Virus record (IMG/VR): IMGVR_UViG_3300029319_000003
Coordinates: 1-64,000 of that record
Strand: one strand, 5' to 3'
Origin: a virus
DNA: 64,000 bases
Under the pieces are notes generated by a model, which saw only the letters and a program-made list of their open reading frames with translations, searched no databases and had not been told where the DNA came from. Below, in pieces: positions 3,954-19,562 of the stretch; the stretch's first letter is position 1, and the number at the start of each line of letters is the position of its first letter. A program made the position numbers and the translations under genes.

Positions 3954-3976
3954 TAGTTCCCCCTCAATACATATAT

Positions 3977-4005
3977 AATATAGCATAGAGGTTCTAATCA
4001 CACAA
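3977..4005 (-). promoter_or_regulatory. Probable sigma70-like promoter
   Basis: TTGTGT (4000-4005), 17 bp, TATATT (3977-3982). The -35 is weak, but the -10 context GCTATATTATATATGT matches the promoter at 3626-3654. Confidence 0.55.
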
Positions 4006-4030
4006 GGTCAATAAGTGTCCGCTTTATAAA

Positions 4031-4243: not shown

Positions 4244-4244
4244 T

Positions 4245-5125: not shown

Positions 5126-5454
5126 TCTTCCCCCGGCTCTTCTTCATCGCCCTCTTGTTCAGCCATCTGACCTAAAATATCAGCGTAACTTTCCATAGCC
5201 TGTACGCTAACCTCCAAAGCATCTGCAAGAATACCCATCATCTTGTTGACGTTTGCATCGCTTGGCAACGTGACCTTGTAGGCATTTAGCAGTTTTTCAA
5301 ATGCTTCATTCTGTGCTGCCTGCTCTTGAACACGACGGTTGTGAAGTTCACGATCATGCTCTTCTTGTTTAGCCTCAACCTTACGTCGATACTCTTCCAG
5401 TTCATCTAATCGCTTTTTCATACTCTCAAAGTCGATTACGTTGTCATCGTTCAT
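5122..5454 (-). CDS. Coiled-coil protein, unknown function
   Basis: 110 residues from the ATG at 5454, which follows AGGAGAGG. MNDDNVIDFESMKKRLDELE, a charged coiled coil (about 10-55), then SDANVNKMMGILADALE and an acidic end DEEEPGEE. Coupled (ATGA) to the membrane protein 4796-5125. Function unknown. Confidence 0.72.
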   Translation of the reverse strand: MNDDNVIDFESMKKRLDELEEYRRKVEAKQEEHDRELHNRRVQEQAAQNEAFEKLLNAYKVTLPSDANVNKMMGILADALEVSVQAMESYADILGQMAEQEGDEEEPGEE

Positions 5455-5484
5455 GTGTCCTCTCCTGTGGTACAATTGTTAATT

Positions 5485-5628
5485 TTAGACTGGCTGACTG
5501 GGGAAATGCACCTCATGGTTGCCTTTGACCAACACCACGATCTGCAATGCTTCGGGTTGGATAATCTCTTCAACCTTTTCCTGCATCGCAAGCCCACCAT
5601 GTGGTCCCATCATCGTGCGTCTTTCCAT
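5485..5628 (-). CDS. 47-residue small protein
   Basis: MERRTMMGPHGGLAMQEKVE, ALQIVVLVKGNHEVHFP. I chose the ATG at 5628, directly after the stop of the sulfotransferase gene and preceded by AGGGTGAT. A longer frame from 5673 exists but would overlap that gene. Unknown function. Confidence 0.5.
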   Translation of the reverse strand: MERRTMMGPHGGLAMQEKVEEIIQPEALQIVVLVKGNHEVHFPSQPV

Positions 5629-5629
5629 A

Positions 5630-6529: not shown

Positions 6530-6644
6530 TATTTGCCTCCTTTTTTCTGCTGTTCCTGACTGAAATTGCGACGATTACTATTCCCAGCGCCGTCCCGGCA
6601 CCCCACGTTGTAAGCAACTCAGCCCTTGTTTTTAGTTTCTTCAT
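6510..6644 (-). CDS. 44-residue single-pass membrane peptide
   Basis: MKKLKTRAELLTTWGAGTAL, GIVIVAISVRNSRKKEANSA, SIFR. A basic N-terminus, one hydrophobic helix (about 14-28) and a basic tail. It bridges the gap between gene 6619-7449 and the sulfotransferase, overlapping both. Function unknown. Confidence 0.55.
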   Translation of the reverse strand: MKKLKTRAELLTTWGAGTALGIVIVAISVRNSRKKEANSASIFR

Positions 6645-7449
6645 GAATCCACCCATGCAAGTCTTCATCATACGCTCCTGTGAGTGGTTGTGTCATTAGA
6701 TCGAGTTCGAACGGGTCCACGCTTTGGACTTCGCTTCGGGCAGTCTCAGTCTTTGCATCAAAAAACGGACTGCCATAGGCAGCATAGCCGCTGCCAACGC
6801 CGGGATGTGTGTCCCGCACTGGTGTTCTCTTTGGTGTCGCAAATCCTGTTGCATCGGTCTTAATCTTGATAGCCTCTTGAAGTTGATCCAGCGAATATTG
6901 CTCTGCAAGCGTCTCTGCAATATCGAGTTGTGTCTTTTTATTCATTATACCCTCTCTCTCCTTTTGTGTTAATACTTTTTTACTTATGTGATGCAGTACG
7001 CCGGGTGACAGATCGCATCGATCATATATTTTTATCTCTCGCCAGTGGAACACACCGGCAATTCTAAATGCATAAGCAATCCACTCACTGCAATACCATT
7101 TTTCACGTCGCTTTATCGAAAACGGCAAAAACTGTGATGCGATCATCCCAACCCAATCATAGCCGCAGCCTTTTGTGTCATCAAAGAAGTTAAGTATAAC
7201 CCGCAATTGCGAATTTGTTATGGTAAATTCAAGAAAATCCCACTTTTCTGGATCGTAACTTGTTTTTTCTCTTGCCGCGACTCGCGAAGATAACATGGGG
7301 CTAATACTCACCCATGTCTTATCGTCTGGCAGCACTAACTCCGCATGCGAGTACTCGCTCTTTGTCCACCACCTAATTGTTTTATTTCGCCAGTCGCCCT
7401 GCCCTTTGTAAAAGGCAATTTTAACTTTCGCCTCCTGCTGCACCTTCAT
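6619..7449 (-). CDS. Permuted papain-fold hydrolase (NlpC/P60-like, YiiX-type) with C-terminal extension
   Basis: 276 residues from the ATG at 7449 (start uncertain). Residues about 8-150 read as a circularly permuted NlpC/P60 domain: KIAFYKGQGDWRNKTIRWWT, KSEYSHAELVLPDD with the catalytic His, DWVGMIASQFLPF, and KWYCSEWIAYAF with the catalytic Cys. Such enzymes cleave peptide or lipid-linked amide bonds. The last 108 residues begin with an internal ATG at 6945 behind AAAGGAGAGAGAGGG and look like a separate helical, proline-containing protein, so this may be a read-through fusion or a gene with a nested second start. Confidence 0.72.
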   Translation of the reverse strand: MKVQQEAKVKIAFYKGQGDWRNKTIRWWTKSEYSHAELVLPDDKTWVSISPMLSSRVAAREKTSYDPEKWDFLEFTITNSQLRVILNFFDDTKGCGYDWVGMIASQFLPFSIKRREKWYCSEWIAYAFRIAGVFHWREIKIYDRCDLSPGVLHHISKKVLTQKEREGIMNKKTQLDIAETLAEQYSLDQLQEAIKIKTDATGFATPKRTPVRDTHPGVGSGYAAYGSPFFDAKTETARSEVQSVDPFELDLMTQPLTGAYDEDLHGWIHEETKNKG

Positions 7450-7627
7450 CTTCTTTGTCCCTGCACACTCCTGCTTCAATTAATCGCATGGCTGTTCGAC
7501 CGAACCAACCCTGCAACTGCCACGCCAGCCCAGTATCAATTAACTGCTGCCACGCTTCAGTAACCTGCTCTTCGCTTTCTGCTTCAATAAATCCTTCTGC
7601 AATGCCTATTGCCTGATGATTTGTCAC
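7421..7627 (-). CDS. Conserved small phage protein (NHQAIGIAEGFIE family)
   Basis: 68 residues with a GTG start at 7627 placed by GGAGGTG five bases upstream. VTNHQAIGIAEGFIEAESEE, WQQLIDTGLAWQLQGWFGRT, AMRLIEAGVC. I recognise this as a small protein found repeatedly in phages: a helical domain with a Trp-rich WQLQGWFGR core. Function unknown. Confidence 0.78.
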   Translation of the reverse strand: MTNHQAIGIAEGFIEAESEEQVTEAWQQLIDTGLAWQLQGWFGRTAMRLIEAGVCRDKEDEGAAGGES

Positions 7628-7629
7628 AA

Positions 7630-7962
7630 TTACACCTCCACCAAAACGGCGCAAATATTATTAGAAAGCAGCCGCTTCAATTCTGCAACAGCATCAGCAC
7701 GCCGTTGAAATTTAAAAGTTGTCCAAGCGCTTTCGTATTGAGCGCGGACTTCATATTGGTGGTGTTTGGACTTCTCGTCATAACCCCACTTATCCATATG
7801 GCTTTTACAATACTGCCGCCACTCCTCAAGATGGTAATCATTCTTCTCGTCCCACGATCCGAACAGTGCATCCATTTTAACGGCGTTCTTCCACAAACCC
7901 TGCTCTGCCTCGACAGAGTAGCAGTCTGCTAGTTTATTCTTGTCATACTTATATGTGTGCAT
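7630..7962 (-). CDS. Small protein, unknown function
   Basis: 110 residues: MHTYKYDKNKLADCYSVEAE, WDEKNDYHLEEWRQYCKSHM, YESAWTTFKFQRRADAVAEL. Aromatic and charged, helical. First gene downstream of the promoter at 7985-8013; AAGGTGAT precedes the start. A TTG three bases earlier is also possible. No family recognised. Confidence 0.7.
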   Translation of the reverse strand: MHTYKYDKNKLADCYSVEAEQGLWKNAVKMDALFGSWDEKNDYHLEEWRQYCKSHMDKWGYDEKSKHHQYEVRAQYESAWTTFKFQRRADAVAELKRLLSNNICAVLVEV

Positions 7963-7984
7963 CAATCACCTTATACTCCTACCC

Positions 7985-8013
7985 AATATAACAGGTTAAG
8001 AGTAAATTGTCAA
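7985..8013 (-). promoter_or_regulatory. Sigma70-like promoter
   Basis: Consensus TTGACA (8008-8013), 17 bp, consensus-like TATATT (7985-7990). It would drive gene 7630-7962 and the genes after it down to about 4031. Confidence 0.85.
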
Positions 8014-8032
8014 GCGTTAATTTAAAAAAGTT

Positions 8033-8260
8033 TTAGGCTTCATACGAAGCAGAAGGAAGCGTTGCTTCCAATGCCTGCTCCATAATAGCAATAGTCTGAT
8101 GCTCATAACTACTGGAAGCCGTGAGGCGCATCTGCTCAAGTTCGTCCATGCCCTCGGCATATGCCAACGCGGACACAAGGCTGTGCCCAAACTGCGCTGC
8201 CTGCACGCATGCATGCTCAAGCGGGGTCAAATCCTTAAGTACTTCTTCTTGTTTGCTCAT
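8033..8260 (-). CDS. Small helical protein, unknown function
   Basis: 75 residues: MSKQEEVLKDLTPLEHACVQ, LVSALAYAEGMDELEQMRL, IAIMEQALEATLPSASYEA. A GTG six bases upstream (8266) is closer to the ideal distance from AGGAG and could be the true start. The gene sits alone between two promoters (8312-8340 and 7985-8013). Confidence 0.68.
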   Translation of the reverse strand: MSKQEEVLKDLTPLEHACVQAAQFGHSLVSALAYAEGMDELEQMRLTASSSYEHQTIAIMEQALEATLPSASYEA

Positions 8261-8311
8261 CACCACATCATCTCCTGTTTGTAACTAGGGAACAATTATT
8301 TCTTTACCAAT

Positions 8312-8340
8312 AATATAACTGCATTTAGCGATGGTGTCAA
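8312..8340 (-). promoter_or_regulatory. Sigma70-like promoter
   Basis: TTGACA (8335-8340), 17 bp, TATATT (8312-8317), directly upstream of gene 8033-8260. Confidence 0.85.
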
Positions 8341-8356
8341 GCAATTTTTTTATTTT

Positions 8357-8632
8357 TTATTCGACGGGGCGAATATAAACCGGGCGCATCAGAGTTGGTC
8401 CGTCGTCCGAATCAATCTCAAAATAATACTCACCAGTAATATACGCGGGAGTTGCCGGCGCTTCTTGGGACTGTTGCGTCCAATAACTTCCATCAATCAT
8501 GACAAACGGCACACGCGCTGTCAACTCTGGATTAACCGCTGCTTGAGCGGTGGTGGCTTCGCGGCTAGCCATGTGTGCTGGAGCGCACGAACTCAGCATC
8601 AACGATACCACGACTGCAAATACTTTCAACAT
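8357..8632 (-). CDS. Small lipoprotein
   Basis: 91 residues: MLKVFAVVVSLMLSSCAPAH is a lipoprotein signal with the lipobox LSSC. The mature part is about 75 residues: an Ala/Gln/Pro-rich linker, VPFVMIDGSYWTQQSQ, AYITGEYYFEIDSDDGPTL. It would be anchored in an outer or inner membrane of a Gram-negative host. It is not clearly an Rz1-type spanin: it is not proline-rich enough and no Rz partner is visible. Possible roles are superinfection exclusion or envelope change, both speculative. Confidence 0.75.
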   Translation of the reverse strand: MLKVFAVVVSLMLSSCAPAHMASREATTAQAAVNPELTARVPFVMIDGSYWTQQSQEAPATPAYITGEYYFEIDSDDGPTLMRPVYIRPVE

Positions 8633-8691
8633 ATCCAATTCCCTCCTTTGGGTACGACTATAAATAGCAACTGGCGCACAAAACGCCAGTT

Positions 8692-9045
8692 TTATCTATT
8701 CATAACAGTCCAGTAATCATAACTCCAAATATTATACCAATGCTGCTCATCCGTGTTCATCTCATCGCTCTCTTCCAACTCCGTAGACCACTGAATTCGC
8801 AGTTGTTTTAGCGCAGGAGCATCACCACGATTTAAAACTGGGTCCACTCTAGTTTCCAACACAAGTCCATAGTATTTCTTTCTTGCTCCCGGTCTTGAAT
8901 ACTCCACAAGGTCACCGGCTCGGATTGTGTTTAGAAAGTGTTTCTGTAGTTCGCGCTGTTTGACATACCACTCTATTTCCTCGGGTGAGGACGCCTTGAG
9001 GCGCGATGGTATTCGCCCATATGGTCCGAACTTGTCATGTGCCAT
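8692..9045 (-). CDS. SH3-like family protein with N-terminal extension
   Basis: 117 residues. A basic, helical N-terminal part (MAHDKFGPYGRIPSRLKASS ... WYVKQRELQKHFL) precedes a VGDLV-type barrel: IRAGDLVEYSRPGARKKYYG, LVLETRV, LRIQWSTELEES. This copy shows that the module can be attached to other segments. Overlaps gene 9035-9367 by 11 bases. Confidence 0.75.
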   Translation of the reverse strand: MAHDKFGPYGRIPSRLKASSPEEIEWYVKQRELQKHFLNTIRAGDLVEYSRPGARKKYYGLVLETRVDPVLNRGDAPALKQLRIQWSTELEESDEMNTDEQHWYNIWSYDYWTVMNR

Positions 9046-9367
9046 TTTTGACCTCGCTGACTAGAACCAATTCGGTGCTGAACATCCACACCGGTCTGTT
9101 CGATTCAGTCGATGGATCTCCGCTCTGCCATAACACCAAATAGATTGGCTTGTAAAGCAAATATTCAGGAATCTCTTCTATATCCCACAGATCATGATTA
9201 GGTGTGAACTCATATGGGACATTTGTTTGCCGCTCATGAAACAAATCAACAACATCACCGTTGTTAGATCTTGTCTCGACAATGAGCCCAACACCTACAT
9301 CCAATTCAATATCATCTTTTAACCGGACAAGATCCCCAACATTAATTTTTATCTTTTGATCTGTCAC
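9035..9367 (-). CDS. SH3-like VGDLV-family protein, long form
   Basis: 110 residues with a GTG start at 9367, placed by GGGGGTG. KIKINVGDLVRLKDDIELDV, GVGLIVETRSNNG, IYLVLWQSGD, MFSTELVLVSEV. The same strands as the short copies, with a 40-residue insert (VPYEFTPNHDLWDIEEIPEY) before the VLW strand. Confidence 0.77.
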   Translation of the reverse strand: MTDQKIKINVGDLVRLKDDIELDVGVGLIVETRSNNGDVVDLFHERQTNVPYEFTPNHDLWDIEEIPEYLLYKPIYLVLWQSGDPSTESNRPVWMFSTELVLVSEVKNGT

Positions 9368-9383
9368 GGCGCACCCCCACAAA

Positions 9384-9737
9384 CTATGCCTCACCTACAT
9401 CATCTGTAATAATTATAGATGCCAGCAGTTCTTCTTCAGTTGGCTGCAAGACTTCCGCTAAGTTTTTTAAAAATTGTCCAGTCTGACTCTCTGCTTGTTG
9501 TAGATCATCAAGCAATGAAAACGCCATCGCGGCTTCATCGGCAACTCGATCATTCTCTTTAATGAGGTCGGCATTCGCGGCTTTTAATTCTTCGACCTGC
9601 ACCTTCAACTGAGCGATCATGTCGTCCTTTCGAAAGAACTCTTTCTTCGCCCTCATCAATCCTTTGGTATAGGTCACCTTCAGAACAGACATACCTTTTA
9701 ATAACTTCTGCACTGTCTCCGAGTTGAGATATTTCAT
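9384..9737 (-). CDS. Coiled-coil protein, unknown function
   Basis: 117 residues: MKYLNSETVQKLLKGMSVLK, then a long charged coiled coil (FFRKDDMIAQLKVQVEELKA, ADLIKENDRV) and an acidic C-terminus. It overlaps gene 9559-9876 by about 179 bases in another frame. An internal ATG at 9656 behind AAAGGA could be the true start and would shorten the overlap. Confidence 0.65.
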   Translation of the reverse strand: MKYLNSETVQKLLKGMSVLKVTYTKGLMRAKKEFFRKDDMIAQLKVQVEELKAANADLIKENDRVADEAAMAFSLLDDLQQAESQTGQFLKNLAEVLQPTEEELLASIIITDDVGEA

Positions 9738-9876
9738 AATTCCACTCCCATGTCACCGCCCGCTCTGTCTTGCCGCTTCCAATCGGAAACCGGCTGGTGA
9801 TGACAAACAACGCGCCATGATAAAACTCTGATCTGATCAGTGACCCGACTTGATACTTTGGTTTGCTTAACTTCAC
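9559..9876 (-). CDS. SH3-like VGDLV-family protein, C-terminus uncertain
   Basis: 105 residues, GTG start after GGGAGAAGTA. KYQVGSLIRSEFYHGALFVI and ERAVTWEWNYEIS match the family up to about residue 55. The rest (ending in an Arg-rich KGRHDRSVEGAGRRIKSREC) overlaps gene 9384-9737 and looks less like a folded domain. Confidence 0.62.
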   Translation of the reverse strand: MKLSKPKYQVGSLIRSEFYHGALFVITSRFPIGSGKTERAVTWEWNYEISQLGDSAEVIKRYVCSEGDLYQRIDEGEERVLSKGRHDRSVEGAGRRIKSRECRPH

Positions 9877-9890
9877 TACTTCTCCCGTGT

Positions 9891-10448
9891 CTAGTAGTCT
9901 TGGATTGAATCATTTTCTTTGTCATAATAGGCAAATGGAATATCTGGATACTTATCCTTCATCCACTTAATCTCAAAACGTGGGGGTTGCTTAAGGTAAA
10001 CAACCTTTTGAACGTGCTTGAAGGGAATAGTGGTGCCCAAAGCATCCACTTGAGGATCGATGCCACTTCCAGAGCCAGCAGCAGAGTCTCGCATGGTCAC
10101 CCGAATCTCCGCTTCATTTGGCGCTGTTGGGTGCTGGACCGACCTAAACTCATAATTGCCGTCAGCAGCCAAGCCCGGTCCTTCAAGGACCAGCACCAGA
10201 TTTCCAAAGTTGCCACCTTTGACAACATCAAAATCTGTGGTAAGGGAGACGCCTTCTTGACCACCGCCGTGGCGGCTCTCTGCCTTATCGGTGATACCGC
10301 CTTCGTGTATCGAAGTAAATCTTGTAGGCTGGGTCGCGTGATAAAGTTCACCGGGAATCTCTGATGGCTGGAGCAGCCCAGCATCAGGGTCTTCCTCCAT
10401 TGTAGATTCCGTTAAGAACTTACGCCAGTTTTCAATTATAAGTTTCAT
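9891..10448 (-). CDS. Head-tag protein with ADP-ribosyltransferase-like domain
   Basis: 185 residues. Residues 1-14 are the tag MKLIIENWRKFLTE, followed by S, so the predicted cleavage is FLTE|S. After that comes an ART-like fold: ELYHATQPTRFTSIHEGGI (the first H/R motif strand and helix), GVSLTTDFDVVKGGNFGNLV (second motif) and PNEAEIRVT, where a Glu sits at the catalytic position. ARTs move ADP-ribose from NAD to a target. T4 packages an ART, Alt, by a cleaved N-terminal tag and injects it to modify host RNA polymerase; this protein fits that role. The ART call is from motif order only and the fold needs a structural test. Confidence 0.6.
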   Translation of the reverse strand: MKLIIENWRKFLTESTMEEDPDAGLLQPSEIPGELYHATQPTRFTSIHEGGITDKAESRHGGGQEGVSLTTDFDVVKGGNFGNLVLVLEGPGLAADGNYEFRSVQHPTAPNEAEIRVTMRDSAAGSGSGIDPQVDALGTTIPFKHVQKVVYLKQPPRFEIKWMKDKYPDIPFAYYDKENDSIQDY

Positions 10449-10460
10449 TGCCCGTTCCTT

Positions 10461-10916
10461 CTATACATTGTATGTTTTTTGCTTGCCGCCCTTGGAGGCA
10501 AAATTGTCTGTCTTAAAATCATCCTTACGCATAACTGTAATAATCTTCATGCTGTCTGGACCTTTTACCATGTTCAGTACAGCAATGACATTCAGCGCTG
10601 GCACGTTGCCAGACTTACCCTTCATGCGAATATGAAATGGCTCTTCGTTTGCCAACTCGCCGTTAGCATAGTCGTTCATAATCAAGCCCATTGCGCGATC
10701 TACTGCCTGAACAATAGAGTCTTTGGAAATCTTGCTGCCCTTGCCACCCTGCTTGTGACGGAAGCGCCGCTCCTCGCCATGCTTAGTGGGCTCCAAGTCT
10801 AAATCTTCAATGTCGATACGAACATTGCCAACCTTGATCATCTGACTTTGACCACCGAGATTCTTGTAGGACTCTTCCCCAAGATAACTCCTCCAGTTTT
10901 CCATAAGATTCTTCAT
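10461..10916 (-). CDS. Head-tag protein with BECR/EndoU-like nuclease-type domain
   Basis: 151 residues from the ATG at 10916, which starts the tag MKNLMENWRSYLGE|E; an upstream in-frame extension is rejected because the tag defines the start. The rest reads PTKHGEERRFRHKQGGKGSK, ISKDSIVQAVDRAMGLIM, and MKIITVMRKDDFKT. The H..ER...I..D.I..A pattern and the closing strand recall the Barnase-EndoU-ColicinE5-RelE (BECR) nuclease group seen in phage and toxin proteins. If so it would cut RNA, but the assignment is tentative. Confidence 0.6.
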   Translation of the reverse strand: MKNLMENWRSYLGEESYKNLGGQSQMIKVGNVRIDIEDLDLEPTKHGEERRFRHKQGGKGSKISKDSIVQAVDRAMGLIMNDYANGELANEEPFHIRMKGKSGNVPALNVIAVLNMVKGPDSMKIITVMRKDDFKTDNFASKGGKQKTYNV

Positions 10917-10917
10917 T

Positions 10918-11721
10918 CTACCAATCCTTGCAAGACCAGTAGCCTGCTGACAACTTGTCTTTCTTTTCATCGCAGTTGTGGCGGCTCCTAAAATTCTTCT
11001 TGCTGTCCTTGTCGTCGCTCTTGTTTTCCATCTTGGCATCACCAAAGCGGATGATCTTTTCCTTGTCACCATCGCAAGCCTTAACAACCTTCTGCTTCTT
11101 TCCGTAACCGGGTTCGCCTTCTTTGATATACCGAGGCGAGTTGCACTTCATGCGGTCCTTGTCTGTCTCTTCAAAGATGGTGTTCGTAAAGAGTGTGTTA
11201 ATTTCTTCTTTCTGAAGCATCTTCTTCATGCCCCTCTTACGGCTGGCTTCGTTTTCTTTCTCTACCTCATCGTCATACTTGTCCAAGACTTTGGCTTCGT
11301 CCTGCTGCGGTACACAATTTGGAACTTTGCCGCCGTCCTTGCCGGGTTTCATGCCAATCTGCTCATAGCCATCCTGACACGGATCATCTTCCCGCTTGTA
11401 CTTCGCCTCATCCACGTCCAAAGTTTCTGGATAGTCGTCGTCACCGGGCTTTGCTTTCTTTTCTCCCGATCCCGCTTTCATTCTTTTCTTCTTCGCGTGG
11501 ATGTTTGCCCACAGCCCCTTGTTCTTGCCTTCATCAACCTCGGGCTTGTCGTGCCCCCAGCCCTTCTTGTCAAGTTCGACATGCTGCTCATAGGTTTCGG
11601 CTTTCTTGCCTTCGCCCGTCTCAGGATCATACATCATGTGAGGCTCAAACTCCTCTTCTTCCTTAGACTTTTCCTTTTCTTCATTGACGAATCGTCGCCA
11701 ATTCTCCATCAAATGCTTCAT
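10918..11721 (-). CDS. Head-tag protein, lysine-rich, with marine-phage C-terminal domain
   Basis: 267 residues from the ATG at 11721 behind GGAGAAG. Tag MKHLMENWRRFVNE|E. Then a long Lys/Glu/Asp-rich part with KGLWANIHAKKKRMKAGSGE, DPCQDGYEQIGMKPGKDGG and KVPNCVPQ, and a C-terminal Cys-containing domain (MKCNSPRYIKEGEPGYGKKQ, FRSRHNCDEKKDKLSAGYWS, CKDW). I recognise these modules as recurring in large marine phages; the RHNC...YWSC pattern suggests a metal or disulfide site. The highly charged composition fits a DNA-associated internal head protein. Confidence 0.75.
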   Translation of the reverse strand: MKHLMENWRRFVNEEKEKSKEEEEFEPHMMYDPETGEGKKAETYEQHVELDKKGWGHDKPEVDEGKNKGLWANIHAKKKRMKAGSGEKKAKPGDDDYPETLDVDEAKYKREDDPCQDGYEQIGMKPGKDGGKVPNCVPQQDEAKVLDKYDDEVEKENEASRKRGMKKMLQKEEINTLFTNTIFEETDKDRMKCNSPRYIKEGEPGYGKKQKVVKACDGDKEKIIRFGDAKMENKSDDKDSKKNFRSRHNCDEKKDKLSAGYWSCKDW

Positions 11722-12065
11722 AGGTATCTTCTCCACGCCCAAAAGGGTCTTTGTTCTAAATAGTTTTCATTATACTGACAAGTATATGCTTCTTTTTCAA
11801 AAGGGTTTTCAAAGTAAGCAATCGCCCCATTTCTAGTCTTTGCATATCCAATCAGCCAAAATAATCCATACATCAGCCACTGCCCGACAAATCCCATTTC
11901 TACTTGCTGCTTGTAGTGAATAGTTTCATGCCGCTTAAGACGGTCGTCCATCTCGCCTCTCGACCAAACCCAGATGCCAAAACTGATCGCACCAATTTCA
12001 ATTGGGGAGATTTTTGAAAGCCAAACAGGGACTTTGCTGTTTTCTATAAAGATAGGTAAGTTCAT
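11718..12065 (-). CDS. HETIH metallopeptidase-like protein without head tag
   Basis: 115 residues from the ATG at 12065 (ATGA overlap, GGAGAAAG in front). MNLPIFIENSKVPVWLSKIS, GAISFGIWVWSRGEMDDRLK, RHETIHYKQQVEMGFVGQWL. HETIH is an HExxH zinc motif; a Glu downstream (NPFEKEAYTCQYN) could be the third ligand. A hydrophobic segment follows the motif. I recognise the family in large phages as an uncharacterised minimal zincin. It sits between two tagged proteins but has no tag, so it may act in the infected cell. Confidence 0.7.
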   Translation of the reverse strand: MNLPIFIENSKVPVWLSKISPIEIGAISFGIWVWSRGEMDDRLKRHETIHYKQQVEMGFVGQWLMYGLFWLIGYAKTRNGAIAYFENPFEKEAYTCQYNENYLEQRPFWAWRRYL

Positions 12066-12868
12066 GCTTTCTCCTTTGATTGACTGATGATCTGAGTATA
12101 AAGTTTTTTCCAAAACTTCTGCATCTCTTCTGGCTTGTCTCCGAGCGCCTGCTCGTAGTCGCCAACAACGCCACCAAGTTTAGAATCCTTTCTCTTAATT
12201 AGTTCTAAAGCCTGTTCCGGCGTGTACTTATCTAATAATTCTTCTGCTGCCTCATGGGCGAATGCGTCCACCTCGTTGTGACGACTAAGATACCCAGCCC
12301 TTGTTCCGGTCTTATCGATCTGCTTTGGATCTTCGATCATTTGTTCGAAAGCCTCTTCCTCTGGGATTCCCTTGCTAGCAGCCTGCTTCTTCAACTGGTT
12401 GTAATGAACCAATTCGTGGTTAAGCGTTGTTGAAATCTTCTTTACCAGTTCACTTGGATCAAGGTCGTTCATATCAAACTCTTCTGAGATGGGGCGTAAC
12501 TCAATCCACACATCGTGTAGTCCGTTTTTTGGTCCACGATACTGCCCTTGCATCATCCAGTTGTTCGGGTATCCTCCGAACTGATCATCGGGTGCAAGTT
12601 CGTAGCCGGCTTCAGTGGTTACCGTAATAATAAAGTTTAAATCTGTGTTGAGTTCTTCAGCCTTTGCATTGAGCGCAGACATGAGGGCTTCACTGGCAGG
12701 CGATCCCATGTTGGCAGTGCCGCCGACTTCATCCACATCGTCTTCTGTGTGTGGCTGGGTCCAGAAGTTGGAGTCAATCATTGCCTGACGAAATCCTTTC
12801 TTCTGTTCTGGTGGAACATCCGTCGCCTCTACGAGAAAGCGCCTCCAATTTTCCATCAACTGCTTCAT
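12062..12868 (-). CDS. Head-tag zinc metallopeptidase-like protein (HELVH)
   Basis: 268 residues from the ATG at 12868. Tag MKQLMENWRRFLVE|A. About residues 150-230 hold the zincin core: LVKKISTTLNHELVHYNQLK with HELVH, then RHNEVDAFAHEAAEEL, where the Glu of NEVDAF is the probable third zinc ligand. Upstream are beta strands (NFIITVTTEAGYEL, GLHDVWIELRPISEE). A secreted or packaged protease that acts on a host protein after injection is the simplest reading. Confidence 0.75.
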   Translation of the reverse strand: MKQLMENWRRFLVEATDVPPEQKKGFRQAMIDSNFWTQPHTEDDVDEVGGTANMGSPASEALMSALNAKAEELNTDLNFIITVTTEAGYELAPDDQFGGYPNNWMMQGQYRGPKNGLHDVWIELRPISEEFDMNDLDPSELVKKISTTLNHELVHYNQLKKQAASKGIPEEEAFEQMIEDPKQIDKTGTRAGYLSRHNEVDAFAHEAAEELLDKYTPEQALELIKRKDSKLGGVVGDYEQALGDKPEEMQKFWKKLYTQIISQSKEKA

Positions 12869-13269
12869 CCTCCTTTCTCCCACGGACCTTCGTGTCCCGA
12901 CTTCATACAATTAATCATAGATTCTTCAGCGTTATACTCTGCATGTATCTCTGGCTGGTAAAGTTCATAGTATGCGTCCTTTGGAATCCCGTCTGGCTTG
13001 GTGAACTTTGTCTGATCATCAAAGACCAAATCTCCCATCTCAACCCAAGCGTGATTATAACTCTCTCCACTAAATTTGTCTGTGACTTTACCGTGAACAA
13101 CTTTGAATTTATCTTTATCGTCAATATCTGGGTGTACCTTCCCATCGTCACCGATGTGATCATTTGACCACTTGGTTGCCATTCTGTTCGCAAACGGATA
13201 GCACTGACCGACTGCAATTGTACCGCCCTCTGTCAAATACTTTCGCCACTGTTCCATAATAAGTTTCAT
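12865..13269 (-). CDS. Head-tag papain/transglutaminase-like cysteine hydrolase
   Basis: 134 residues. Tag MKLIMEQWRKYLTE|G. The body shows a Cys-His-Asp order: GQCYPFANRMATKW (Cys at the start of a helix), VVHGKVTDKF, YNHAWVEMGDLVFDDQT (His and Asp on adjacent strands). This layout is that of small transglutaminase/papain-like enzymes of phages. Likely a protease or amidase. The short body (about 120 residues) is a complete minimal domain. Confidence 0.7.
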   Translation of the reverse strand: MKLIMEQWRKYLTEGGTIAVGQCYPFANRMATKWSNDHIGDDGKVHPDIDDKDKFKVVHGKVTDKFSGESYNHAWVEMGDLVFDDQTKFTKPDGIPKDAYYELYQPEIHAEYNAEESMINCMKSGHEGPWEKGG

Positions 13270-13895
13270 GATACACCCTTCCCTACCTTTAGTTTGCCCA
13301 TGCCGAGCAACTTTTCCATTGTTGGGTTGCCCTTCGCTCTAAAAATTCTTGAAGTGGGCGCGTCATACCACTCACCTTTGTTGTAATCTGTCCACACAAT
13401 AGAAGTGTGTTGACCACAGTCGTCGCTTGGGTCATCTGGGGTTAGTTGCTTCAACATTCTGTGTTGTACAATATCTAACTGTGCGCTTTCAATATCGGAT
13501 CGGTTCTCGTCATAATATTTCCACACTGCATGGGCATCCTTGGAAACTGAGCCCCTGTCTGCCATCAGCCCGCCACCTTTGTGTGTTGCCCATTCCATAG
13601 CAAGATCATAAAGCATCGGACCCCAGCCACTCGCAGCGTCAGCAGCCTTTACATAATACCCGTCAAGACAGTCGCCGTAATTCATATCTTTGGCTTTCAC
13701 AACCGCAACATATCCTGATGGTCCTCCGCTGTCTGCCGAGCCGCCCCATTGTTTACCGCCATCTTTAGTATAAATAAAATAGAATACGCCCCCCTGCTCC
13801 TTGCTCACCTCGATACCATAACCTTCCGGTATTTCATCAGGAGTTTTCATTCCTTCGGATAGGAAGTTGCGCCATGTCTCCATCAATAGTCTCAT
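13266..13895 (-). CDS. Head-tag GNAT-like acyltransferase (paralogue 1)
   Basis: 209 residues. Tag MRLLMETWRNFLSE|G. The core VAVVKAKDMNYGDCLDGYYV, KAADAASGWGPMLYDLAMEW, GGGLMADRGSVSKDAHAVWK matches that of the next gene and follows the acetyltransferase order: substrate strand, G-x-G-P-like CoA loop before a helix, then a strand and helix. QLTPDDPSDDCGQHTS is also shared. Family members acetylate proteins or small molecules; the target is unknown. Confidence 0.68.
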   Translation of the reverse strand: MRLLMETWRNFLSEGMKTPDEIPEGYGIEVSKEQGGVFYFIYTKDGGKQWGGSADSGGPSGYVAVVKAKDMNYGDCLDGYYVKAADAASGWGPMLYDLAMEWATHKGGGLMADRGSVSKDAHAVWKYYDENRSDIESAQLDIVQHRMLKQLTPDDPSDDCGQHTSIVWTDYNKGEWYDAPTSRIFRAKGNPTMEKLLGMGKLKVGKGVS

Positions 13896-14620
13896 ACCAC
13901 AATCAATCTCCCGGCTGCTTTGAGCGCCTGCATAACTTCTGGGTTAGGTTTGTAATACATCTTGGACACTGGCAAGGCTGCCCACTCCTCTCCAGCAGCA
14001 GCGACCGCCTTACCCTGATCGCAATCATCTTCCGGCTTGTCTGGTGTCAACTGAGGGAATTGCTTCTGTTTCTCTCTCGTTCCAGACAAGCCGTGGTCAA
14101 TGTCCATCTGCTTCGCTTCCACGTCTCCGCGCTTCTCGTACTTTGCCCACACTGCCATCGCCTTGTCGGACACAATTCCACGGTCAGCGGTCAAGCCACC
14201 GCCCTTCTGTGATGCCCACTCAAGCGCGACCTCGTACAGCAGTGGACCCCAGCCCTGCTCGGCTCCGGTGGCTAAAATAATATACCCATCGTAACACTCA
14301 CCATCCGCTGTTGGCTCCGACTTGTAAATCTCGACCTGACCATACAATTCATACTTCTCTCGGTTTTCATAGAAATCATCCTCAAAGTATTCCTCTGCTT
14401 GCCCCGGTTGGAGGTCGCCGGGAAATGCCATGTCGTGGAATTGTGGAGGGTCTGCCTCGGGGTCTGTGATTAGAACGTACTTGAATGCTTTGCCGAAGCC
14501 ATCGCTTGTAATCGCTACACCGATATTCTCATACGCAATCAAATTATCTAATTGCTTTTGGATACGCGGATCGATTCCCTCGTTCAAGAACCTACGCCAA
14601 TTTTCAAATAAGAGTTTCAT
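13892..14620 (-). CDS. Head-tag GNAT-like acyltransferase (paralogue 2)
   Basis: 242 residues from the ATG at 14620, defined by the tag MKLLFENWRRFLNE|G and an ATGA overlap. Core: ECYDGYIILATGAEQGWGPL, LYEVALEWASQKGGGLTADR, GIVSDKAMAVWAKYEKR, QLTPDKPEDDCDQG. Tandem paralogue of gene 13266-13895; the similarity begins with the tag, and the middle has an insert. Probably arose by duplication of tag plus enzyme. Confidence 0.68.
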   Translation of the reverse strand: MKLLFENWRRFLNEGIDPRIQKQLDNLIAYENIGVAITSDGFGKAFKYVLITDPEADPPQFHDMAFPGDLQPGQAEEYFEDDFYENREKYELYGQVEIYKSEPTADGECYDGYIILATGAEQGWGPLLYEVALEWASQKGGGLTADRGIVSDKAMAVWAKYEKRGDVEAKQMDIDHGLSGTREKQKQFPQLTPDKPEDDCDQGKAVAAAGEEWAALPVSKMYYKPNPEVMQALKAAGRLIVV

Positions 14621-15477
14621 CTTGGCCATCCCTCTGGATCTCTTTCCACAATCACATGTGGAATAAACATGTCGTCTTCTGGATCTGCAAGGTATTCCCA
14701 CACCACAAAATCCATTTCCTGCTCTACCCTGCTCTGTCCTTCTGAAGATTTAATAATCTCTACCAACTCGGGCATCAGCAACTTTACAACATCGCGCTTT
14801 GCTTGCTCTATTTCAGGCTTAAGGTCTTGAATTGCCGCGAGCCACATTTCCATGACCCGTGGAATTAATTCTTTTTCTAATCGCCCTGCGCTTGCTTGTG
14901 TAAGTAAATACTTCTGAATAATATCTTTTGGTTGTTTGCCGGTGGCTTCAGCCCGCGCCAGAATTCCCGAGGCAAAAGCCTCAACTTCAACATTGGTGCC
15001 GTAGTATTCGATCTCTTCTGGATCAGGAGTAACAATCCCCATCTCTTCCTGCCCCAGATGTGTAACTTCGTGCTGAATGATCTCGATCAACTCCTCTTCA
15101 ATCTCTGATAAAAAAGTTTGAAGGTCTTGCGTCGGATCTATTTCAATAAAAAACTTAATCTCTGGAATCGCATCATCTCGCAATCCGGCTTCGCCACGGA
15201 TATTCCAATGTACACCAGAACCCTCTTCCGCTTCCATCAACGGAGGTGCTGCACCGGGTGGTGCGCTCTTGGATCGCGCCTTTGGCGGGTTGCGGTCATA
15301 AGGACCACCGCCCTTTTTCTTCTTACCCTTAGTAGATAGTCGCTTCGAAGCGTGACCTTTCTTCATCTTGTTTTGGAATTCATTGTCGCCTTTGTCTGAA
15401 GTGTCAACCCAAGACTTACGTCCGTGTCGAGTCTCTTCAGCCACAAATCGCCGCCAATTTTCCATGATCACCTTCAT
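14617..15477 (-). CDS. Head-tag zinc metallopeptidase-like protein (HEVTH)
   Basis: 286 residues. Tag MKVIMENWRRFVAE|E, then a basic low-complexity stretch (GKKKKGGGPYDRNPPKARSK) and a zincin core: EEELIEIIQHEVTHLGQEEM with HEVTH and GTNVEVEAFASGILARAEA with a probable Glu ligand. The C-terminal 100 residues are helical. Same arrangement as gene 12062-12868 but with little other similarity, so a second packaged protease with its own target. Confidence 0.74.
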   Translation of the reverse strand: MKVIMENWRRFVAEETRHGRKSWVDTSDKGDNEFQNKMKKGHASKRLSTKGKKKKGGGPYDRNPPKARSKSAPPGAAPPLMEAEEGSGVHWNIRGEAGLRDDAIPEIKFFIEIDPTQDLQTFLSEIEEELIEIIQHEVTHLGQEEMGIVTPDPEEIEYYGTNVEVEAFASGILARAEATGKQPKDIIQKYLLTQASAGRLEKELIPRVMEMWLAAIQDLKPEIEQAKRDVVKLLMPELVEIIKSSEGQSRVEQEMDFVVWEYLADPEDDMFIPHVIVERDPEGWPR

Positions 15478-15704
15478 TAACTTTCTGCTCCAACATCAAA
15501 CGGGGCTTCCAGAAAATGGTTTGTTAAAATAATCTCTTTGTTAGTACGATCATAATACATCATCACCATATCCTTTCCAGTTACTCCATCCATTTCCGCT
15601 TCGGAAATCTTAATCTCACCGCCTTCACGCTTGACTAATGCCGTCATCATTGTGAACAGCATTTGTTCGTTGCTTAGTGCGCCTCGTTCATCGTTCTCGC
15701 TCAT
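15477..15704 (-). CDS. Small protein, unknown function
   Basis: 75 residues: MSENDERGALSNEQMLFTMM, LVKREGGEIKISEAEMDGVT, MVMMYYDRTNKEIILTNHFL. An alpha-beta mini-domain. It ends at the start codon of the HEVTH protein gene. No tag. Confidence 0.7.
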   Translation of the reverse strand: MSENDERGALSNEQMLFTMMTALVKREGGEIKISEAEMDGVTGKDMVMMYYDRTNKEIILTNHFLEAPFDVGAES

Positions 15705-15867
15705 CGATCCTCACTAGTCCTATAGATAGGCACGCTGCTGAAACAGCAGCAAGTAAAACAATATCTCCATCACCGTGGACAATACCGAAACAAGCCATTG
15801 CAATGTTGAGTGCAAGTGCCCCCATCATCACACGCTTGTCCATTAAAAACTCTTTAAACCTGCTCAT
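15688..15867 (-). CDS. 59-residue two-helix membrane protein
   Basis: MSRFKEFLMDKRVMMGALAL, NIAMACFGIVHGDGDIVLLA, AVSAACLSIGLVRIDERER. Two hydrophobic helices (about 13-30 and 36-52) joined by HGDGD. The ATG overlaps the stop of gene 15864-16586 (ATGA). Holin-like in size and topology, but that is only a possibility. Confidence 0.65.
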   Translation of the reverse strand: MSRFKEFLMDKRVMMGALALNIAMACFGIVHGDGDIVLLAAVSAACLSIGLVRIDERER

Positions 15868-16586
15868 GTCGGTTCTCCTACAAAGCCGTTTTCAATATCT
15901 TTTATTACACTCTGTAGTAAAGCGATCAATTCAGGATTCTGGATACCGTTATCATACAAGTCATTAAGGATCTCTTCAATCTTTTGTTGAGCCGGCTCGA
16001 TGATGAGGTGTTCGTTCCCGGTGTACTCTTCCGACAACTCCTTTTCAAACTTGTCGTTAATATCCTCTTCGATCTCTTCTTCAATCGCAGCAGTGGATTG
16101 AGGATGCAGTGCCGATAGTGCCCCTTGGACAGCGGTCGAGCGCTTCTGTTGTGCTCGCGCCCACTCACGATCAACGCGGTTCGGAAACTCGCGACGACCT
16201 TTTCTCGCCCGCATTGCAGCACGCTTCTTCCAGTAAGAAGACAACCTAACTTCTTGCAACATGTCTGGACCGACCCCAAGGATCTCTCCGGCAATTGAAA
16301 GTGCCTGATCTGCAATCTGCCAACGCTCTTCTTCTGTTGGAGGTGGAACCATACCATCCATCACTGCGTGAATCTCGTTTTCAATGGCTGCGCCGTCGGG
16401 ACTTCCGACTGCCTCGGCTGCGTCCTGAGCAAGCATCTGAGCCAGTTCGCCACTCGCGTGCGCCTGTTCAAGCCGACCCGAACCGCGTGATCTATTGGAT
16501 GGTCGCTCTGGACTCTCATTGAGTGCCGCCGATTCGCGCCAAGCATCCCAGTTCTTGTTTATTTTTTTAAATTCCTTAAGTTTCAT
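15864..16586 (-). CDS. Helical protein with divergent head-tag-like N-terminus
   Basis: 240 residues from the ATG at 16586 behind GGAGGAGAATCAG. MKLKEFKKINKNWDAWRESA ends in ALNE|S: the NW..W and LxE|S features recall the tag in stretched form. The rest is charged helix with SYWKKRAAMRARKGRREFPN (basic) and two EEIEEDINDKFEKE-type acidic segments. Function unknown; it may be an internal head protein. Confidence 0.65.
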   Translation of the reverse strand: MKLKEFKKINKNWDAWRESAALNESPERPSNRSRGSGRLEQAHASGELAQMLAQDAAEAVGSPDGAAIENEIHAVMDGMVPPPTEEERWQIADQALSIAGEILGVGPDMLQEVRLSSYWKKRAAMRARKGRREFPNRVDREWARAQQKRSTAVQGALSALHPQSTAAIEEEIEEDINDKFEKELSEEYTGNEHLIIEPAQQKIEEILNDLYDNGIQNPELIALLQSVIKDIENGFVGEPT

Positions 16587-16938
16587 CTGATTCTCCTCCG
16601 AATGTTTCTTGTTCCCCATCTTGATAAGTGATTATTGTCTTGTTTACTGGGTGTGGGTGGATATGAACCCTGATAAAATCAGACATAGAGTCAAAAATAG
16701 CGATGCCGCCGCGTGGTGGCGGGTAGAGCCAGTGTACAATACACTGCCCAGTCGCGAGGACGGCACCTTCAATAACCACACCAGTGCCGGAGACACCGGT
16801 TTCGTCCATTCGCCTTGCAACGGTAAATACCCGGATACCCTCCGGTGCTAAACGAGCCGGGGCTTTTGGAATAAGCGACTCCGGCGCAAACTCTTCCGAC
16901 CCAGATTGCTCTGCGCTACCATCTACATCATCAGTCAT
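16576..16938 (-). CDS. Conserved phage protein (GVSGTGVV family)
   Basis: 120 residues. Disordered acidic N-terminus, then IRVFTVARRMDETGVSGTGV, VIEGAVLATGQCIVHWLYPP, AIFDSMSDFIRVHIHPHP. The ...D.TGVSGTGVV..G......V..W...S...F.S..... H pattern is one I recognise in many phage and plasmid ORFs, a small beta-rich domain of unknown role. Confidence 0.75.
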   Translation of the reverse strand: MTDDVDGSAEQSGSEEFAPESLIPKAPARLAPEGIRVFTVARRMDETGVSGTGVVIEGAVLATGQCIVHWLYPPPRGGIAIFDSMSDFIRVHIHPHPVNKTIITYQDGEQETFGGESDET

Positions 16939-17230
16939 TGGTGCTTCCTTCCTTTAATGAATATAGGCTTTCAAGTTGTTGGCGTGTTCTCGCTGCCCGC
17001 GCAACTAGTTTTTTTTTATTTTCGCGCTGATCGGCAATTCTATTCATCTTCTTTCGCACACCTTCAATACTCATACTCTCTGGGGTGGGCAACAAGCCTG
17101 CCGTTAATCCATGAATAAGCAACAGCACACCAGATGATACCATAAAGGTTCCCAACTTAAAAGTAAACCAAAAATGTTCCATCACTGTTTCATCCACCTC
17201 TTGGGTGTGTCTGGTGTAGACTCTAAACAT
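16931..17230 (-). CDS. DUF6356-like membrane protein
   Basis: 99 residues: HTQEVDETVMEHFWFTFKLG, TFMVSSGVLLLIHGLTAGLL, PTPESMSIEGVRKKMNRI, then a basic coiled tail. The H....ET..EH...........G..LLIHG..P...... pattern resembles DUF6356. One strong membrane helix. The Shine-Dalgarno sequence is weak, and a start at 17182 is possible, but it would cut the family region. Confidence 0.65.
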   Translation of the reverse strand: MFRVYTRHTQEVDETVMEHFWFTFKLGTFMVSSGVLLLIHGLTAGLLPTPESMSIEGVRKKMNRIADQRENKKKLVARAARTRQQLESLYSLKEGSTND

Positions 17231-17247
17231 CGCATACTGTCATCCAT

Positions 17248-19005
17248 TTAAATAATATTTGCGAGGCGCATCAAGCGGTGGCGTAGTGCCTCCTGCTGTG
17301 CTGCGGCTTCTTCCTCGCCGCCGGCATCTTCAGCAGCGGCTTCGGCTTCAGCGGCTTTCGCCTCTTCCTCGGCGGCTTTCTCTTCTTCTTCTGCCTTCTT
17401 CTCTTCTTCTTCTGCCTTTGCCTTTTCCTCTTCTTCCTTCGCCCGCTCTTCGTCTTCCTTCTGACGCTCGGCTTCTTCGGCTTCTGCTTCGGCTTCCTCC
17501 GCTGCTTCTTCCTCTTCCTCGGCTGCGGCTTCTTCTTCTGCTGCCGCCTCCTCTTCGTCTGCCGCCGTTTCAGCCTCATCAGCCTCATCTTCAAGCGCAC
17601 CAGACAACTCACTGTTCGCCTTTTCGAACTCGGCTTCTAACTTCGATGCTTCATCTGCTGCTTTCTGGGCGTCTTTGAGAGCGTCCTGCTTCGACTTCAT
17701 GGCTGCTGCAAGATCTTTATCGAGTTGCATCGCATCCTTCGCAAGTTCGGCTTCAGTTGCCGCCAATTCTTGAGCAGCCTCGACAGCCTTAGTTTGAAGT
17801 TTGGCGGCTTCTTGAGCAGCCTTTACTGCCTCTTCCTTTTCATCGTTAGCATCAGCGGCGAGGTCTGCTGCGCTCTCTTTGTCCTTTCCCACCTTTTCAA
17901 CTTCCTTGTGGTACTTCTCTCTTTCCTTTGCAACGTCCTCTTCTTCTTTCGCTGCTGCTGATAAATCTTGAATTGCTTTCGATTTAGTCTTCGCGGCATC
18001 CGCTGCTTGAGAGTGGAGATCCGCTAAAGCCTGCTGCTCTTCTGGACCCTCGCCAAGCACACGCTTGATGTGGTCAATAGTTGTTCTGATAATACGCTCT
18101 TCAAGCGACTCTTTGTTCAATATGTGTGCGTACTTAGCCTCATCGTCCGAGTCCTGCTCACCGCGTTGCCAGCCACGCATGTAGTGCTCATCCTCTGGCA
18201 TTCTAGGTTCAGCAAATTTTGGATCTTCTCTTCTCTTCATAAACCATTGACCAGACTTTGCATAACGATCCTGCCAGCCCAGAACCTCAACATCATTCTG
18301 TGCCCACTTCAAATCCTTACATGCTTTGCACTCTGTGCCGTCTGGGTTCATCTTTTTCTTACCAAAGCCAAACAACTCGTTCATAGAGGGATTCCGTGCC
18401 ACCGTCAACACCCGTGGATCGTGGCGTGCTTGACCTCCACTGTCCCACATAACAAGAACAACCCCGGCAGCGTGATCGTGAGCCACAACCCTGCCTTGAC
18501 CACGCTCAGGTTCTTGGTCGTGTGTCACCCTGTCGCCAGTTCGTGGCAAGCCTGCACCCCCTTCGTGAATCTTGTTTCTTTTACGGCTCTCGCTGTACGT
18601 TGACTCAAAATCAAATTCGCCATCGTCTTCATATTCTTCTTCAGCATCAGGATCGGCAACTTGCTCGACCTCCAATCCATTCATCTTAGCCCACATCGCA
18701 ATAATTTTTTCAGTGTCTGCATCATAATAGTCCTCAAACACATTGCTGTCCCATCTTTGCATCCCACCTTGGTTTTTGCGCGGGTCTGCATTCACAGCCA
18801 TCATTCTATCAATCTGCTCTTCAGGAGCCCAGCCTCCGACGCCAGCGTCCACCAAGTCAAGCACCATCATGCCAAGGCTTTGATCTGCCTGTTCGCCTGA
18901 TTCGTCAAAGAATTGATACTGGTTGCCATAGCCGGTGTTGGACACCGAATACTTCATCTTGCCTTCTGTTAGATACTTTCTCCAATTCTCAAATAATAAC
19001 TTCAT
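17248..19005 (-). CDS. Head-tag protein with SH3-like middle and long Glu/Ala coiled coil
   Basis: 585 residues. Tag MKLLFENWRKYLTE|G. About residues 150-205 hold a KOW/SH3-like segment (RTGDRVTHDQEPERGQGRVV, GVVLVMWDSGGQARHDPRVL). KACKDLKWAQNDVEVL and MPEDEHYMRGWQRGEQD form a small Cys-containing module. From about 320 to the end it is one highly charged coiled coil dominated by EEEAAAEEE, ending ALRHRLMRLANII. This is the only tagged protein with a long filament-like domain; scaffold or core protein is one option, DNA-mimic another. GC-rich repeats in the 3' half create long shadow frames on both strands. Confidence 0.75.
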   Translation of the reverse strand: MKLLFENWRKYLTEGKMKYSVSNTGYGNQYQFFDESGEQADQSLGMMVLDLVDAGVGGWAPEEQIDRMMAVNADPRKNQGGMQRWDSNVFEDYYDADTEKIIAMWAKMNGLEVEQVADPDAEEEYEDDGEFDFESTYSESRKRNKIHEGGAGLPRTGDRVTHDQEPERGQGRVVAHDHAAGVVLVMWDSGGQARHDPRVLTVARNPSMNELFGFGKKKMNPDGTECKACKDLKWAQNDVEVLGWQDRYAKSGQWFMKRREDPKFAEPRMPEDEHYMRGWQRGEQDSDDEAKYAHILNKESLEERIIRTTIDHIKRVLGEGPEEQQALADLHSQAADAAKTKSKAIQDLSAAAKEEEDVAKEREKYHKEVEKVGKDKESAADLAADANDEKEEAVKAAQEAAKLQTKAVEAAQELAATEAELAKDAMQLDKDLAAAMKSKQDALKDAQKAADEASKLEAEFEKANSELSGALEDEADEAETAADEEEAAAEEEAAAEEEEEAAEEAEAEAEEAERQKEDEERAKEEEEKAKAEEEEKKAEEEEKAAEEEAKAAEAEAAAEDAGGEEEAAAQQEALRHRLMRLANII

Positions 19006-19253
19006 TTCTTTGATTCTCCAATTCCTAAAAATGCTTCAAAGCGAGAGGTCGCCTTGTTAATAACTTGCCTGCGGACACGCTCAACATCTTGTGGGTCGCC
19101 GGGGTTAACCTGCATTTTCATCATATATTGATCGATGTATTCATCGAGCGCTCGATTGAGGGCGTTCTCTGTGTCGGGATTGGCAAACTCATCGAGGGCT
19201 CTCGCTGTCTCCTCTTTGACAATCTCAATTAATTCTTTTCTACTGATTTTCAT
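19002..19253 (-). CDS. Small helical protein with tag-like N-terminus (MKISRKELIEIVKEE)
   Basis: 83 residues. MKISRKELIEIVKE|ET resembles the MKITxxxLxxIIxEE start common in proteins of large marine phages and has a length similar to the local tag. The rest is helical (LNRALDEYIDQYMMKMQVNP, VERVRRQVINKATSRFEAFL). Lies between two tagged genes. Confidence 0.65.
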   Translation of the reverse strand: MKISRKELIEIVKEETARALDEFANPDTENALNRALDEYIDQYMMKMQVNPGDPQDVERVRRQVINKATSRFEAFLGIGESKK

Positions 19254-19506
19254 TGTCCGACTTCTCCTCTTTTTCGGCGTCTAATGTCTTCTTGCTTTTC
19301 TTGCTATCGGGCAGGTGCTTCTCGATTCTAAACTTTAAAAGAGGCTTGCCGTTGATTGTCGGCTGACCGATTTCATCAGTACCAATCTCTTTCACCTCGA
19401 TTCTTTTATTTTTATATTTGCCGCCGAGCACAATATCGCCAACTTCAATGTCGAGGGTGATTGCCTCTTGCAAAAACCTTCGCCAGTTTTCCATTATCAA
19501 CTTCAT
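19240..19506 (-). CDS. Head-tag protein with small SH3-like domain
   Basis: 88 residues. Tag MKLIMENWRRFLQE|A, then DIEVGDIVLGGKYKNKRIEV, KEIGTDEIGQPTINGKPLLK and a charged tail. The body looks like the VGDLV barrel of the 1-10 kb region joined to the tag, linking the two repeated modules of this genome. First gene of the tagged cassette in transcription order; a terminator lies upstream. Confidence 0.7.
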   Translation of the reverse strand: MKLIMENWRRFLQEAITLDIEVGDIVLGGKYKNKRIEVKEIGTDEIGQPTINGKPLLKFRIEKHLPDSKKSKKTLDAEKEEKSDNENQ

Positions 19507-19562
19507 AAAACGCTCGCTCCCAATAAATAGAATTGCACGTTATAATTAGTGCCTTAAACGTG

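Follow-up and report, generated by a model that had tools for sequence, protein, structure and literature searches.

A short N-terminal tag shared by ten proteins of an uncultured marine phage is a probable T4-type capsid-targeting propeptide

Background

Why would ten proteins encoded in one region of a phage genome begin with the same 14 residues and then have next to nothing in common? The question is raised by the opening 64 kb of a record of 184,187 bp from an uncultured marine phage (IMG/VR record IMGVR_UViG_3300029319_000003), a stretch of 64,000 nucleotides referred to hereafter as the window. A preliminary description of the window had reported the ten genes and proposed that the common N-terminus directs a set of enzymes into the capsid for injection. 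We consider it very probable that this tag is a capsid-targeting propeptide of the kind found on the internal proteins of phage T4, and that the bodies behind it would be cut free, packaged and injected. The supporting observations are the tag itself, its two-part design, an LxE junction, the presence of the protease and capsid genes, a promoter-like motif shared with head genes, and the exchange of tags.

In T4, the propeptide of the internal proteins is removed by the protease gp21 and, for IPIII, the first ten residues suffice, with targeting depending mainly on residues 4 and 7 and processing on residues 8 and 10 (PMC9026906). The internal proteins of T-even phages form a diverse set in which the capsid-targeting sequence (CTS) alone is conserved (PMC3012670). 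In the T4 genome, ipII and ipIII start with MKTYQEFIAE followed by A, while ipI starts with MKTFKEFTSTTTPVSTITE followed by A, with the site further down. T4 internal proteins are injected into the host, where IPI blocks a restriction enzyme.

Results

All ten minus-strand starts given for the window (10448, 10916, 11721, 12868, 13269, 13895, 14620, 15477, 19005 and 19506) were right, and every one of these frames opens with the 14-residue tag M-[KR]-x-Φ-Φ-E-x-W-R-x-[FY]-Φ-x-E. Searched for as a degenerate DNA pattern, the tag occurred 10 times in the window, against 0.00 matches in shuffled sequence, and a loose protein pattern found no further tags in the rest of the record. The ten tags share a mean amino-acid identity of 64%, as opposed to 6% on average over the 30 residues that follow (15-44); the claim that the proteins diverge completely behind the tag thus holds for the bodies in general but not for those at 13895 and 14620, which are paralogues with 38% identity. 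Codons for a shared amino acid match at the third base in only 39% of cases, indicating that the tag peptide, and not its DNA, is under selection. This figure largely contradicts the idea that the stretch acts as RNA or DNA, as a translation start signal or a recombination seed. Such a role would fit the position of the tags exactly at gene starts, and some tags within one phage are nearly identical in DNA and can therefore also serve as recombination seeds, but conservation follows the amino acid and we regard this explanation as very improbable.

A scan of IMG/VR with the full tag pattern returned at least 119 stretches. Among the matches listed, 218 distinct frames with the tag of the window (class A) represent 119 body families, of which 80 have a single member, as had been predicted by the expectation that a pattern search elsewhere would find unrelated bodies behind the same tag. 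Outside IMG/VR the tag is scarce: 257 Gb of bacterial and archaeal genomes gave two matches, both phage-like genes in metagenome-assembled genomes. At one of the loci recorded, a GNAT-like phage gene with the tag sits in a metagenome-assembled 'chromosome' of 2.85 Mb (CP070664.1, WOR-3 bin77), which is either a chimeric assembly or an integrated phage. A tblastn search of 50,697 phage records with doubled tags found nothing for classes A, A' and B and only three weak matches (E 6-7) for class C; in a local control, most tags of the window would pass the class A threshold. At one further locus (L080, ~9857-9898), a 14-codon frame consists of exactly one tag and then a stop codon.

The design of the tag became apparent in a second IMG/VR scan that fixed residues 1-9 only, so that the cut site was not built into the search. 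Its finds and those of the first scan, where E14 had been required, were pooled to give 165 distinct tags. Among the matches listed, a [LIMV]xE element ends at residue 14 in 121 of the 165, a share somewhat inflated by the pooling, and at residues 13-17 in 145, whereas six-residue windows further downstream, of about equal length, hold the element in 17-22 of 165 cases. The count of shifted sites among tags lacking E14 is unaffected by the pooling: 24 of these 40 carry [LIMV]xE at a shifted position, compared with 8.7 in shuffles, and none of 1000 shuffles reached 24. As the LxE is kept but shifted, the tag can be described as a fixed first part, MKLLxENWRx[YF], and a movable [LIV]xE site whose distance from the helix varies by one to three residues. 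In the model of the protein at 14620 the tag is a lone low-confidence helix, followed by a break and then a mostly confident body.

An amphipathic helix of this kind might instead address the proteins to another phage-made structure or to a membrane, with the Glu of LxE as part of a docking surface and not of a cut site. The tag is indeed predicted to be helical, and cleavage is here a prediction from sequence. Against this stand the sliding of LxE by one to three residues, its occurrence in otherwise unrelated tags and its coincidence with the junction to the body, together with the similar ends of the capsid propeptides described below; we hold a purely docking address to be improbable.

The record is a T4-superfamily phage, and the genes on which capsid targeting would depend lie in it, outside the window. 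A gp21-type prohead protease is encoded at 81388-81984 of the record (phrog_207, E 9e-57; its closest cultured homologue, from a Flavobacterium phage, is 49% identical), as are a gp23-type major capsid protein, a gp20 portal and a gp17 terminase. All 15 fetched records that carry the tag and are 130 kb or longer encode the protease, and gp23 was present in all 18 tagged records tested. Eight random large records contained gp21 in four cases and the tag in none (Fisher p 0.008 for co-occurrence of tag and gp21, a value to be read with the relatedness of these phages in mind, as they are not independent). The gp23 propeptide terminates with LL[RK]E, mostly before A or S, in 17 of 17 tagged phages; from the place of this site in front of the conserved shell domain, it would be the counterpart of the T4 gp23 cut.

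A GroEL chaperonin gene is located at 25166-26737 of the window (phrog_5725, E 3e-142), ~6 kb upstream of the tagged cassette. The T4 head protein gp23 needs GroEL.

Several classes of tag exist, and the same body can stand behind more than one of them. The body of the proteins at 14620 and 13895, searched without its tag, gave 78 loci, and this GNAT-like family occurs behind at least five kinds of N-terminus (MKLLMENWRKYLNE, MKKLLTEWRKFLAE, MNLLREYIRELLTE, MKLTEAKLKKLINEVLEE and MKIRIKRKKQIISE). All five end in [LI]xE, nearly always followed directly by G or A and then the body, and in an alignment of 43 sequences only M1 and E14 are nearly invariant ahead of the body. Similarly, the metallopeptidase body of 12868 is found behind a class C tag, MKITSRQLRKIIKEEIYLYE followed by S, in record L619, which lacks class A tags, and the body of the protein at 19506 behind a class C tag in record L548; one class A relative has an extra N-terminal part fused to this latter body. 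In a close relative (L621), the homologue of the coiled-coil protein at 19005 bears the variant tag MKLKDFKKLNEGWDRWRLTE followed by G, and the cargo there includes, in addition, an ART-like and an HD-domain protein. Overall, 13 body families stand behind more than one tag class. Class B comprises, among the matches listed, 80 frames in 32 families, with LxE at residue 14 in 62 of the 80 though this was not demanded; gp21 was found in 12 of 12 class B records of at least 119 kb, and class B tags were absent from the eight class A records checked. Classes A, B and C together amount, among the matches listed, to 463 sequences and at least 290 body families.

That the tag is simply the first helix of a shared folded domain, which had been named beforehand as the finding that would overturn the proposal, is contradicted by the 119 unrelated body families, by the swapping of tags and by the isolated, low-confidence helix outside the body in the model. 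The paralogous bodies of 13895 and 14620 would be in keeping with a shared domain, yet we regard this explanation as excluded for practical purposes.

The record itself carries class C tags. A five-gene cluster with class C or class C-like N-termini lies at 164485-168851 (L011), adjoined by two ACTATTTA motifs at 169406 and 169482. One of its genes (165036-167195; L011:4536-6695) encodes a 719-aa class C protein with three tag-like copies at residues 2-18, 141-157 and 508-524, each ending in LxE or MxE, so that the protease could cut this protein into pieces.

A de novo search identified CTATTTA, mostly as ACTATTTA, as the commonest motif upstream of the genes of the record (12 occurrences, 1.1 expected). 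It precedes the genes for the tail sheath, head-tail adaptor and head decoration proteins, genes of the gp21 operon, and the first tagged gene, where it lies at 19524-19530 on the minus strand, 18 nt upstream; a second ACTATTTA motif is found at 11757-11764 on the same strand, ~40 nt upstream of the tagged gene starting at 11721. Across phages, CTATTTA stands upstream of 44 of 211 tags and its reverse complement upstream of none, and on the coding strand it precedes gp21 in 14 of 15 tagged phages versus 0 of 4 untagged ones. A T4-like but divergent late promoter, CTAAATA, has been described in phage Aeh1, with late promoters reported before late genes only (PMC1524935). We take ACTATTTA to be a putative late promoter: the sharing of the motif by tagged and head genes is seen directly, and would point to expression of the two together. 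The T4 late promoter TATAAATA showed no link to the tagged cassette, and the few proteins tried included no recognisable gp55-type late sigma factor.

The cassette, all on the minus strand, opens with an 88-aa protein (19240-19506; tag MKLIMENWRRFLQE at 19465-19506, each tag position cited here being a match to the DNA pattern) with the small body DIEVGDIVLGGKYKNKRIEV. Possibly related to this body (EVGDIVLGG) are numerous small paralogue-like proteins that show a 'VGDLVR...GIVLE' pattern and are encoded at 1054-9394 of the window and at 170390-182686 of the record. Within the tagged run there follow an 83-aa class C protein (19002-19253; tag MKISRKELIEIVKEE, N-terminus MKISRKELIEIVKEETARALDE) and the 585-aa protein 2 (17248-19005; tag MKLLFENWRKYLTE at 18964-19005), the C-terminal half of which is long, acidic and coiled-coil-like. 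The gene at 15864-16619 carries a divergent tag variant, MKLKEFKKINKNWDAWRESAALNE followed by S, that starts within the listed frame; in one relative this variant precedes a body that bears a normal tag in the window. The count of ten tags was confirmed, but these two genes leave the list of tagged proteins open. The description of the cassette as a single operon is uncertain, as untagged genes are interspersed and the second promoter-like motif lies inside the run.

Next come protein 3 (286 aa, 14617-15477; tag MKVIMENWRRFVAE at 15436-15477), a zincin-like metallopeptidase with a HEVTH motif, and the putatively GNAT-like protein 4 (242 aa, 13892-14620; tag MKLLFENWRRFLNE at 14579-14620, with the lone helix predicted at low confidence for residues 2-12) with its paralogue, protein 5 (209 aa, 13266-13895; tag MRLLMETWRNFLSE at 13854-13895). 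Protein 6 (134 aa, 12865-13269; tag MKLIMEQWRKYLTE at 13228-13269) has a putative cysteine-hydrolase-like body, GQCYPFA...HAWVE, and protein 7 (268 aa, 12062-12868; tag MKQLMENWRRFLVE at 12827-12868) a metallopeptidase-like body with HELVHYNQ. The last three are protein 8 (267 aa, 10918-11721; tag MKHLMENWRRFVNE at 11680-11721), which is lysine/glutamate-rich and matches PHROG families of unknown function, protein 9 (151 aa, 10461-10916; tag MKNLMENWRSYLGE at 10875-10916), with no family match for its body, and protein 10 (185 aa, 9891-10448; tag MKLIIENWRKFLTE at 10407-10448), ADP-ribosyltransferase (ART)-like by sequence impression only. An untagged third metallopeptidase-like gene, with HETIHYKQQ and a match to phrog_15610 'protease', lies within the tagged run at 11718-12113.

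A Pfam search with the ten bodies returned nothing above threshold, and the enzyme labels of the preliminary description fared unevenly. The two zincins are supported in part, by HExxH, and the coiled coil is evident from the sequence; the nuclease found no support, the GNAT label is weak, and the cysteine hydrolase, like the ART, is a sequence impression. The bodies of 12868 and 15477 contain HELVH and HEVTH, respectively, with no third ligand identified and no Pfam match, and the family of 12868 preserves the HExxH motif, with an invariant stretch containing H/E after it. For the model of 14620, the best PDB matches in foldseek were GNATs (E=0.17, none significant), weakly suggesting a GNAT-like fold for this body and that of 13895; no match was found in cultured phages. 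The ART-like body (10448) matched no Pfam or PHROG family and had no IMG/VR relatives by peptide patterns, and its AlphaFold model, built from two sequences, was unusable (pLDDT 41); a relative with 32% identity is present in L621.

Among the matches listed, tagged bodies elsewhere contain Pfam domains of M23 peptidases, amidases, NUDIX, GDSL, HAD, exonucleases and HD, as well as AAA_33/zeta-type kinase, acetyltransferase, DUF192 and cytidylyltransferase domains. These bear on whether the proteins are packaged and cut but act mainly in the head or its assembly, as part of the core or in DNA condensation, with only some of them being injected effectors. Acidic or coiled-coil bodies and bodies outside any family are numerous, and T4 IPIII has been discussed as part of head morphogenesis (PMC9026906). 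Hydrolases, kinases, and acetyltransferase- and phosphatase-like domains among the bodies speak against such a role, and cargo that varies between close relatives is a better fit to host-directed proteins; we consider a mainly structural function unlikely, albeit worth keeping in view.

At two loci (L201:382-1131 and L088:8079-8828) TAT/Sec signal peptide-like stretches follow the tag (with a weak Pfam TAT match in L201), as if cutting of the tag could expose an export signal.

Discussion

Capsid targeting predicts a gp21-type protease, an LxE site in the capsid protein, separable tag parts, unrelated bodies in other phages, a motif shared with head genes and tag swaps at the cut site, all of which were found. 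We infer docking, cleavage, packaging, injection and the functions of the bodies, and propose the following sequence of events. The MKLLxENWRx[YF] part, probably one amphipathic helix, would dock the newly made protein on the scaffold core of the prohead, and [LIV]xE at residue 14 would be cut by the gp21-type protease during head maturation. The freed bodies would remain in the head alongside the DNA, enter the next host on infection and act there before phage gene expression. The sequence of the tag would differ by phage lineage, and bodies moving between lineages would be re-tagged.

Several points weigh against this proposal. A cut after (L/I)xE and before A, G or S had been expected; its first half agrees with the position of [LIMV]xE in most tags, but the residue after the cut site (P1') is broader, including E, S, A, G, D, Q, N and V. 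The gp22-like scaffold was assigned with gene position as the sole basis and has no family match. The tagged phages are akin to one another, so the co-occurrence of the tag with gp21 and with the promoter motif does not constitute independent evidence, and the contigs are fragments, some records being duplicates or pieces of one phage. The late promoter is putative, and no virion proteomics was found for these uncultured phages.

The closest known counterpart is the CTS of T4 IPI, IPII, IPIII and Alt, likewise a short N-terminal propeptide on differing proteins with [LI]xE before A, accompanied by a gp21-type protease and a gp23-type shell and separable into targeting and processing parts. At the level of sequence, four features of a T4-type CTS are found here: a propeptide ending in [LI]xE, unrelated bodies, gp21 and gp23, and a propeptide site in the capsid protein. 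The sequence differs, however (MKLLxENWRxYLxE in the window, MKTYQEFIAE in T4), as do the ten class A proteins in one phage, the several tag classes, the at least 290 body families and the enzyme-like bodies. Both share the layout MK....E..[FYW]...[LI]xE before A, which is too short to show common descent.

In phage P1, an N-terminal signal takes DarB into the head and is reported to suffice for a reporter (PMC9024508), resembling the N-terminal head targeting predicted here. That study, in contrast to our case, saw no consensus among the Dar proteins and judged a separate scaffold to be lacking in P1, and the parts of it used here describe no shared LxE tag. In phiKZ and SPN3US, ejected head proteins lose N-terminal propeptides to the prohead protease gp175/gp245, and the paralogues gp53 and gp54 have an identical N-terminal stretch (PMC5694885). 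A prohead protease combined with N-terminal propeptides, whose cutting is predicted in our phages, is common to both; by contrast, the cut motif there is A/S-x-E, propeptides are often long, and the sections of the source drawn on describe no large unrelated cargo set behind one short tag.

The preliminary description knew of no published tag family of such size. The principle is published for the T4 internal proteins; what would be new, judging by the tags collected here, is the expansion of a CTS-like layout to several lineage-specific tag classes and at least 290 body families. More tentatively, and as a possibility that we do not as yet favour, these tags could form a general postal system of T4-superfamily and jumbo phages, chiefly marine ones, in which each lineage has one or more tag classes suited to its own prohead, and hundreds of cargo families pass from lineage to lineage, receiving a new tag when they arrive. 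A phage with both class A and class C, such as the present one, would then direct two cargo sets to distinct locations in the head or stages of its formation.

Conclusions

Thanks to the tag, proteins that a phage injects along with its DNA could be sought by sequence, and pattern scans yield at least 290 candidate families of injected proteins from uncultured phages. As injected proteins meet host defences first, new enzymes of counter-defence and host takeover may be sought among these families. Tag exchange between lineages offers a means of following how phages gain cargo, and the tags themselves are candidate addresses by which proteins may be loaded into phage heads.

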